Source of the DNA: Pedobacter indicus
Lineage (GTDB): Bacteria > Bacteroidota > Bacteroidia > Sphingobacteriales > Sphingobacteriaceae
Assembly: GCF_003449035.1 (NCBI RefSeq)
Contig: NZ_QRGB01000001.1
Location: forward strand, 1,302,001-1,366,000
DNA: 64,000 nucleotides
Reading direction: 5' to 3'
Position numbers and translations under genes: made by a program. Under the pieces are notes generated by a model. It was not told where the DNA came from, made no database searches, and saw only the letters and a program-made list of their open reading frames with translations. Every line of letters begins with the position of its first letter. Within the stretch, counting starts at the first letter, position 1. Shown here in pieces: positions 13,040-45,121 of this stretch.

Positions 13040-13057
13040 GTCTCAATAATTTACAGA

Positions 13058-13099
13058 GAAAAGGGTCGCCATTTCAAAATGGCGACCCTTTTCTTTTGT
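13058..13099 (+). terminator. Intrinsic terminator after ferritin
   Basis: A 16-bp perfect stem, 13058-13073 with 13078-13093, has a 4-base loop and T-rich flank. Confidence 0.9.
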
Positions 13100-43224: not shown

Positions 43225-43599
43225 ATGAAGTTCGCATTGAGGGTGTTATTGATCTTGTTCATTGCTGCTTCGGTAACTTCATGTGCTCCAAAAATCACAC
43301 AAAGAGGTAAAGCATCCTACTATGCGGATAAGTTCAAAAACCGACCAACGGCCAGTGGCGAGCGTTATAAGCCGGGGCGGTTGACAGCCGCACACAAAAC
43401 ACTTCCCTTCGGAACAAAAGTAACTGTGATTAATAGGCAGAATGGCCAGCGCGTCAAGGTAGTAATAAACGATCGGGGACCCTTTGTTTCAGGTCGTATT
43501 ATCGACGTTTCCAGAAAAGCTGCGAAGCGATTGAATATGATCCGGTCGGGTGTTGTGGACGTGCAGATTAAGTACAAACGACCTAAATCTAAACGGTGA
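43225..43599 (+). CDS. rlpA: RlpA-like septal lipoprotein (double-psi beta-barrel)
   Basis: A 124-residue lipoprotein with lipobox SVTS-C and a compact DPBB domain: KASYYADKFKNRPTASGERY, LPFGTKVTVINR, VVINDRGPF and RIIDVSRKAAKRL, with the catalytic aspartate (NDRGP). RlpA cleaves denuded peptidoglycan glycan strands. It lacks the C-terminal SPOR domain of larger RlpAs. The ATG at 43225 is immediately after GH92; the longer frame overlapping it is a shadow. The end overlaps the convergent HsdR-N gene by 11 bases. Confidence 0.9.
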   Translation: MKFALRVLLILFIAASVTSCAPKITQRGKASYYADKFKNRPTASGERYKPGRLTAAHKTLPFGTKVTVINRQNGQRVKVVINDRGPFVSGRIIDVSRKAAKRLNMIRSGVVDVQIKYKRPKSKR

Positions 43600-44044
43600 A
43601 ATCAGGTAGGTCTTCTATATACTGGTAGCTTTTCCGTTCAAAATCGATATGACAATAATAATGTTGGAGTCCGTTACTTACAACCAATAGTGGTACGCGA
43701 TGAATGAGGTTATATCGTGCAATTTGATCAAAAGCCTCTTGTGTAATCTTTACGGATGGTGCTTTAAACTCTGCGATCAAAATCTTTTCTCCAGTGCGGT
43801 TGAATATCAATAAATCAGTTCTCTTTTGAAGTTCGTTAAGTTTTAACCCCCCTTCACATTGAATCAGGGTTTTTGGGTATCGCTTTTGATTAATGAGGTA
43901 TTGTATCCAATGTTGTCTAACCCATTCTTCTGGTGTTACCAGAAGATACCGTTTTCTTAGTTCATCGAAGATAAAAACCTTACCATCTTCTTGTTTCAAT
44001 CGAAAAGGATAAGGGGGAAGATTTAGGGGGATTCCTTTAAACAT
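43589..44044 (-). CDS. HsdR N-terminal-domain protein (stand-alone nuclease-like fold)
   Basis: A 151-residue protein equivalent to the N-terminal nuclease domain of type I restriction subunit R, without the helicase. It carries the PD-(D/E)xK pattern: RTDLLIF (aspartate near 92) and ILIAEFKAP (Glu-x-Lys near 107). The start MFKGIPLNLPPYPF is conserved in Bacteroidota, where this gene is often found divergent to holA, as here. A restriction role is unlikely because there is no HsdM/HsdS; a DNA-maintenance role linked to replication is an inference. Confidence 0.82.
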   Translation of the reverse strand: MFKGIPLNLPPYPFRLKQEDGKVFIFDELRKRYLLVTPEEWVRQHWIQYLINQKRYPKTLIQCEGGLKLNELQKRTDLLIFNRTGEKILIAEFKAPSVKITQEAFDQIARYNLIHRVPLLVVSNGLQHYYCHIDFERKSYQYIEDLPDFTV

Positions 44045-44047
44045 CTC

Positions 44048-44077
44048 CCAAAAATACTTATTTTTGGTTGCTTACAA
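44048..44077. promoter_or_regulatory. Mirror-image divergent promoters between the HsdR-N gene and holA
   Basis: CCAAAAATA-CT-TATTTTTGG (44048-44067) is a perfect inverted repeat holding a TATTTTTG -7 element on each strand. The minus promoter also has a TTG (CAA at 44075-44077) 18 bases upstream. The plus element is 41 bases before the holA ATG. Confidence 0.65.
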
Positions 44078-44107
44078 AACCACTTCCGGACGATAATAGA
44101 ACGAAGA

Positions 44108-45121
44108 ATGACCTTTCAAAATATATTAGCAGATCTAAAAGCAAAGAAATATGCACCGCTCTACTTACTACATGGAGAGGAGTCTTTCTTTATTGATCAG
44201 ATTACCGACTATATCGAAGATCATGTCTTGAGTGAAGCTGAAAAGGGATTCAACCAAACTATTTTATACGGAAAAGAAACCGATTTTATAACCATCGTCA
44301 ACTCTGCCAAAAGGTACCCCATGATGGCTGAGTATCAAGTCATAATAATCAAAGAAGCTCAATCGCTCGATTGGAACAGGGATGCATCGGTTTCGGTTTT
44401 AAATAGCTATTTAGAGAATCCTCTTAATAGTACGATCCTGGTGTTTGACTATAAGCACGGGAAATTCGATAAAAGAAAAAAGACCTATAAGCTTTTTCAG
44501 AGTAAAGGCGTTGCGCTTGAGGCTAATAAGCTCTATGATAACCAAGTCGCTGGCTGGATCACCGATTATTGTAAGAAAGCTAGCTATCGAATTCAGCCGG
44601 AAGCGGCTGCTTTGATGGCTGAATATTTGGGTTCCGATCTGTCAAAGATTGTGAACGAAATAGAGAAGATCTTTCTTAATACCAAGTCAGATAAAGAAAT
44701 AAGCACGGACGATATTCAGAAGAATATTGGAATTTCAAAAGACTTCAACGTTTTCGAGCTTAATAAGGCTCTAGGTTATAAAAATATCTTCAAAGCCAAT
44801 CAAATAGTCGATTATTTCATTGCCAATCCCAAATCAAACCCACCACCCCTTGTTTTTGGCTCTTTGACAACTTATTTTGTTAAAGTGCTGCGTTATCATT
44901 ACTCACCAGATAAGAATCGAAACTCCCTAGCAAAAGTAATAGGAGTCAGCCTAAACTTTGTAGACGAATACGTTGCGGCTGGCCGAAATTATAGCAAATG
45001 GAAGGTGTTTCAAATTATCCATCTTCTTCGGGAATATGATATGAAGTCAAAAGGTGTTGATAATCCAAGCAATCTGACAGGACCGCTCCTGCGTGAACTT
45101 GTCTATAAAATTCTTCATTAA
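44108..45121 (+). CDS. holA: DNA polymerase III delta subunit
   Basis: A 337-residue clamp-loader subunit. ILADLKAKKYAPLYLLHGEESFFIDQITDYIED at the N-terminus and GSDLSKIVNEIEKI near 178 match HolA; the C-terminal part is helical (LLREYDMKSKGVDNP). It opens the sliding clamp together with delta-prime and tau. Transcribed divergently from the HsdR-N gene by a shared dyad promoter. Confidence 0.93.
   Translation: MTFQNILADLKAKKYAPLYLLHGEESFFIDQITDYIEDHVLSEAEKGFNQTILYGKETDFITIVNSAKRYPMMAEYQVIIIKEAQSLDWNRDASVSVLNSYLENPLNSTILVFDYKHGKFDKRKKTYKLFQSKGVALEANKLYDNQVAGWITDYCKKASYRIQPEAAALMAEYLGSDLSKIVNEIEKIFLNTKSDKEISTDDIQKNIGISKDFNVFELNKALGYKNIFKANQIVDYFIANPKSNPPPLVFGSLTTYFVKVLRYHYSPDKNRNSLAKVIGVSLNFVDEYVAAGRNYSKWKVFQIIHLLREYDMKSKGVDNPSNLTGPLLRELVYKILH

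Follow-up and report, generated by a model that had tools for sequence, protein, structure and literature searches.

Warman, Grainger and colleagues have described bidirectional promoters in E. coli and further prokaryotes (PMC12825309). In these, a pseudo-symmetric core lies between divergent genes and admits a single polymerase at any one time; both directions use one -10 element, and the distance between the start sites is commonly 10, 18 or 23 bp. At the five E. coli promoters of this kind that were tested, the basal level of transcription did not suffice for effective competition, and one direction could be repressed when the other was substantially activated. The primary-sigma promoter of Bacteroidota is described as TTTG at -33 and TAnnTTTG at -7 in three studies (PMC6847099, PMC9723704, PMC7366714). 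Between the -7 element and the transcription start there are 4-5 nt (PMC6847099), and in F. psychrophilum the -7 element occupies -12 to -5 (PMC9723704). Leaderless mRNAs make up 5.5% of the mRNAs in F. psychrophilum (PMC9723704), about 3.7% of the 5' UTRs in B. thetaiotaomicron are shorter than 10 nt (PMC7366714), and leaderless signals were reported in 1 of 37 Bacteroidetes/Chlorobi genomes by a survey that sought a Pribnow-type box (PMC3160421). How does a divergent gene pair of this phylum compare with these systems?

The pair lies in the window, that is, the whole stretch of 64,000 nucleotides that was analysed. HsdR_N (PF13588; 43589-44044, minus strand) encodes a predicted single-domain PD-(D/E)XK nuclease of 151 aa (Pfam E 1e-36), and holA (44108-45121, plus strand) encodes DNA polymerase III subunit delta, 337 aa (TIGR01128, 242.4 bits against a cut-off of 80). 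The two genes diverge from their starts at 44044 and 44108, with 63 nt between them. At the other end of HsdR_N an RlpA-like (DPBB) gene converges on it, and the 3' ends overlap by 11 bp at 43589-43599. The original prediction placed in the gap a perfect 9-bp inverted repeat carrying one -7 element per strand, two bases apart, and this is exactly what is found at 44048-44067. The dyad, CCAAAAATA-CT-TATTTTTGG, spans both strands with a 2-nt loop. The -7 element of HsdR_N, TATTTTTG, is at 44049-44056 on the minus strand and ends 4 nt before the ATG; that of the probable holA promoter, again TATTTTTG, is at 44059-44066 on the plus strand. Each is an exact TAnnTTTG (TAHHTTTG), the two are separated by 2 bp, and no further exact TAHHTTTG occurs on either strand between 43960 and 44130. 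When one mismatch is allowed, the element beside HsdR_N is still the sole plus-strand candidate from 43960 to the holA ATG.

The remaining promoter parts were assigned by eye. A possible -33 element of HsdR_N, TTTG, is at 44075-44078 on the minus strand with an 18-nt spacer (consensus from PMC6847099), and a possible -33 element of holA, TTTA (3 of 4), is at 44036-44039 on the plus strand with a 19-nt spacer, within the coding start of HsdR_N. The holA-side element is weak, and the -33 element is weak in F. johnsoniae as well (PMC6847099). In the gap of Albibacterium bauzanense type (locus L002), no clear minus-strand -33 element was seen by eye. With the distance of 4-5 nt from the -7 element to the start (PMC6847099), transcription of HsdR_N is predicted to start at 44044 on the minus strand, on the A of its ATG, and that of holA at about 44071 on the plus strand, giving a 37-nt leader. 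A scan with a sigma-70 type consensus, which is unfit for Bacteroidota, gave 5 promoter-like sites where shuffled sequences averaged 3.4 (sd 2.1), and the same promoter and terminator scan found no terminator. Elsewhere in the window, at 13057-13094, 18-bp arms form a perfect inverted repeat around a 2-nt loop; it may be a terminator.

Like the promoters of Warman et al., the site has a pseudo-symmetric core between divergent genes and would take one polymerase at a time. Unlike them, with their shared -10 element (PMC12825309), it has two -7 elements that do not overlap. Its predicted starts are 27 bp apart. It resembles the primary-sigma promoters of Bacteroidota in having an exact -7 element on both strands and a plausible -33 element on one (PMC6847099, PMC9723704, PMC7366714), and it differs from them in the back-to-back placement only.

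Is the dyad itself surprising? When the 69 bp spanning both start codons were shuffled 2000 times, an equal or better repeat arose 4 times, a figure that overstates the surprise because back-to-back TAnnTTTG elements alone give 6 matching pairs. Only the pairs at the two n positions and one pair flanking the motif come on top of these. Since its arms are mostly the two promoter elements, the repeat by itself adds little. Perfect arms of at least 9 bp with a loop of at most 6 occur at 7 distinct places in the 64-kb window, one of them within the HsdR_N coding sequence, where a second perfect 9-bp inverted repeat is seen at 43926-43946.

The location of such sites is more informative than their number. 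Across the window's own genome, the pattern CAAANNTAN{0,8}TANNTTTG has 10 sites versus 7 for a reversed control pattern, and divergent gaps hold 7 of the 10 pattern sites (the HsdR_N/holA site included) versus 0 of the 7 control sites. This bias indicates that the pair tends toward places of divergent promoters, and does so at a number of unrelated gene pairs. Besides the HsdR_N/holA gap, six divergent gaps of this genome have a back-to-back TAnnTTTG pair, one of them upstream of tRNA-Pro, and the arrangement is therefore not special to HsdR_N and holA. The window and 400 kb of further stretches, 464 kb together, contain 35 divergent gaps shorter than 400 nt, 5674 nt in total, and the pair is present in 2 of these gaps, HsdR_N/holA and one other. 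In 81 genomes of the family the pattern was counted 1071 times versus 981 for the control, with more sites in 41 genomes and fewer in 28. The family-wide excess over the control is weak. As that count is barely above the control, it is only the location test in the own genome that argues for function.

Is the dyad as old as the gene pair? At 177 of 189 Sphingobacteriaceae loci, among which some genomes are counted twice because two collections were used, holA stands divergently beside HsdR_N; 11 of the remaining 12 loci are without a holA match in the fetched flank, and one has a negative gap. The 144 distinct gaps have a median length of 101 nt and a range of 39-971 nt, and 81 of them are 110 nt or shorter, so that a looser overlap of promoters may be common. 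Exact back-to-back -7 elements within 8 bp, counted with the plain TANNTTTG, are present in 4 of the 144 distinct gaps, and the pair abuts HsdR_N in three: the window, Albibacterium bauzanense (L002/L031) and bacterium A37T11 (L077/L197), the last of which belongs to a genus other than that of the first two. The genome of the window and one further genome examined are of the genus of Albibacterium bauzanense, and the gap of the further genome (L002) is identical to the Albibacterium bauzanense gap (L031). With the limits loosened to a total of one mismatch and a spacing of up to 10 bp, a pair is found in 9 of 81 distinct gaps and abuts HsdR_N in 5. As judged from these gaps, the gene pair is old and the back-to-back dyad is not. 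The expectation that relatives with the same gene pair would keep the dyad did not hold, for the exact HsdR_N-abutting pair is missing from 141 of the 144 distinct gaps. With three gaps in 144, the dyad is ruled out as a conserved regulatory device of the whole family. At several loci of the same class outside the family (L141, L148, L149, L150 and L157), the gap between HsdR_N and holA is about 20-35 nt, and a -7 element with at most one mismatch still abuts HsdR_N.

A different feature of the locus, absent from the original prediction, goes much deeper. The -7 element of HsdR_N ends so close to the ATG that the start should fall on the start codon itself, and a leaderless mRNA is predicted. 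A -7 element with at most one mismatch is located 3-5 nt before the HsdR_N start codon in 45 of 92 distinct upstream sequences of the family (24 exact), and shuffles gave a mean of 2.5 and a maximum of 7. At least one member of 15 of the 24 family genera has this placement; no sampled member has it in the other 9, and it is rare in some of the 15, two examples being genera with 1 of 9 and 1 of 8. Outside the family and within the class, 17 of 18 loci have it (9 exact), and outside the class 0 of 6 do; among weaker-scoring distant loci the number is 6 of 20 with any in-frame start allowed. For control genes of the own genome, 17 of 334 have a -7 element with at most one mismatch at 3-5 nt (5 exact), and for flanking genes of the relatives (flanks of L031-L110) it is 1 of 279 (none exact), the starts of these control genes being those of the longest ATG frame, which dilutes both controls somewhat. 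The leaderless-type placement, as read from the upstream sequences, is conserved while the dyad is not. Because leaderless mRNAs are rare in the phylum, this conserved start is the more notable feature of the locus. It is like the leaderless mRNAs known from Bacteroidota in that the spacing of the -7 element predicts a start on the AUG; unlike those described in PMC9723704 and PMC7366714, it is predicted from sequence only, yet it is conserved across families of the class.

What kind of gene keeps such a start? The product scores 125.8 bits with the Pfam model HSDR_N_2 (cut-off 25), and the E-D-ExK residues of a PD-(D/E)XK nuclease are kept. Residues E64, D77, E92, K94, Q107 and Y111, which we take to be the catalytic and QxxxY residues of this fold, are invariant in 23 of 23 aligned sequences. 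BsaXI, a Type IIB restriction-modification protein, is the best fold match of the predicted model (pLDDT 89.1), with E 2e-4 and a TM-score by query of 0.52-0.58; an HsdR fragment follows (E 1e-3, 0.37), and no solved structure related by sequence was found up to E 1. Unlike HsdR of the Type I restriction enzymes, the 151-aa protein is without a helicase motor, and its Pfam matches are HSDR_N domains only. Of the neighbouring genes, holA and the RlpA-like (DPBB) gene are the two given a family. With PADLOC, models of type I methyltransferases were hit in their N-terminal part at E 4e-10 and 1e-5, and two further hits were weaker. HsdR_N is present in 98 of 101 family genomes and in all 91 good ones, in 201 of 201 good genomes of an order sample (those listed all being Sphingobacteriaceae), and in 78 of 148 genomes of a phylum sample. 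The family genomes that have the gene show one strong match each, and 2 of 101 have a weak second one. This presence in every good family genome, as a single strong match, argues against a defence system. Near universal and mostly single, the gene seems to have a housekeeping role rather than one in restriction. Among the literature matches listed, none is a study of the HsdR/holA pair or of the HsdR_N nuclease.

The holA side seems to have a different history. In 53 of 80 distinct family upstream sequences, a -7 element with at most one mismatch is located 4-10 nt before the holA start (shuffle mean 4.7, maximum 11); 15 loci from outside the family gave no such element near the start. The window and Albibacterium bauzanense are without this near-ATG element, their best match at that place having 3 mismatches. 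The same two species have the exact back-to-back pair. The absence of the near-ATG element, together with a good plus-strand -7 element beside HsdR_N, suggests a shift of the holA promoter within this genus. The longer palindrome of Albibacterium bauzanense would agree, as we infer from the sequences of the two species, with the -7 region of HsdR_N having been duplicated in inverted orientation.

What then is the site? Probably it is a two-way promoter of the Bacteroidota type, composed of an old leaderless HsdR_N promoter and a gained, abutting holA promoter. The -7 elements of two primary-sigma promoters would stand back to back with 2 bp between them, and the -33 and spacer regions of the two would cross. 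The HsdR_N promoter would be the old one, giving a leaderless or nearly leaderless mRNA from the AUG, and the holA promoter would be derived in the genus, most sampled relatives having a holA -7 element close to the holA start codon. The tight spacing is a local peculiarity, and the site is probably an ordinary variant of the known two-way promoters. The plus-strand copy might instead be there by chance, the -7 element of HsdR_N alone being used and the copy being a by-product of AT-rich symmetry. The genome-wide counts little above those of the control (10 versus 7 in the own genome, 1071 versus 981 in the 81 genomes) and the weak holA -33 element would agree with that, but both species examined in the genus keep an exact plus-strand -7 element at the site, and there is no other candidate near the holA start; chance is an unlikely explanation. 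Might the dyad be an operator, at which a dimeric regulator covers both -7 elements and represses both genes together? In Albibacterium bauzanense the symmetry does exceed the -7 elements, with 14-bp arms, 13 matches and a 4-nt loop (0 of 2000 shuffles). Against an operator, the two species have different symmetric bases beyond the -7 elements, one C/G pair in the window versus ATCTTT/AAAGAT in Albibacterium bauzanense, the loop is 2 nt in the former versus 4 in the latter, and in the other distinct gaps no perfect repeat with arms of at least 8 was found at the same place (81 gaps, imperfect repeats being invisible to this search). We hold such an operator to be highly improbable.

There is a further question of concern, whether the geometry couples the two genes. 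It had been claimed that RNA polymerase could bind in only one direction at a time, and that this ties the expression of the nuclease-fold protein to that of the replication subunit. The first part is plausible, since two polymerases would hardly fit on -7 elements 2 bp apart and exclusion is expected. The second part finds no such backing. A shared switch, in which polymerase bound one way shuts off the other and so couples expression of the nuclease and the clamp-loader subunit, could draw on the 2-bp separation and the predicted starts 27 bp apart, which make simultaneous binding unlikely, and on the divergent order at 177 of 189 loci with so many short gaps. It is very unlikely nevertheless: no more than 3 of the 144 distinct gaps have the exact pair next to HsdR_N, the gap length varies from 39 to 971 nt, and there was little basal competition at the five bidirectional promoters of E. 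coli, which were too weak at the basal level for exclusion to matter (PMC12825309). Unless HsdR_N or holA is strongly activated, independence of the two genes is the better default. In the two-way promoter that we prefer, RNA polymerase would take one orientation at a time, and at housekeeping activity the cost to either gene would probably be small, leaving no regulatory effect. One may go further and suppose that HsdR_N is a deeply conserved leaderless gene of Bacteroidia, and that in Albibacterium an inverted copy of its -7 region became a new holA promoter, with the result that the two mRNAs compete for the polymerase site; this extended scenario is doubtful.

If the two-way promoter reading is true, it would show what a two-way promoter can be like with the unusual sigma factor of Bacteroidota: in place of one shared -10 element, two separate -7 elements would stand back to back. 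It would also give the family a near-universal nuclease gene with a conserved leaderless-type start.
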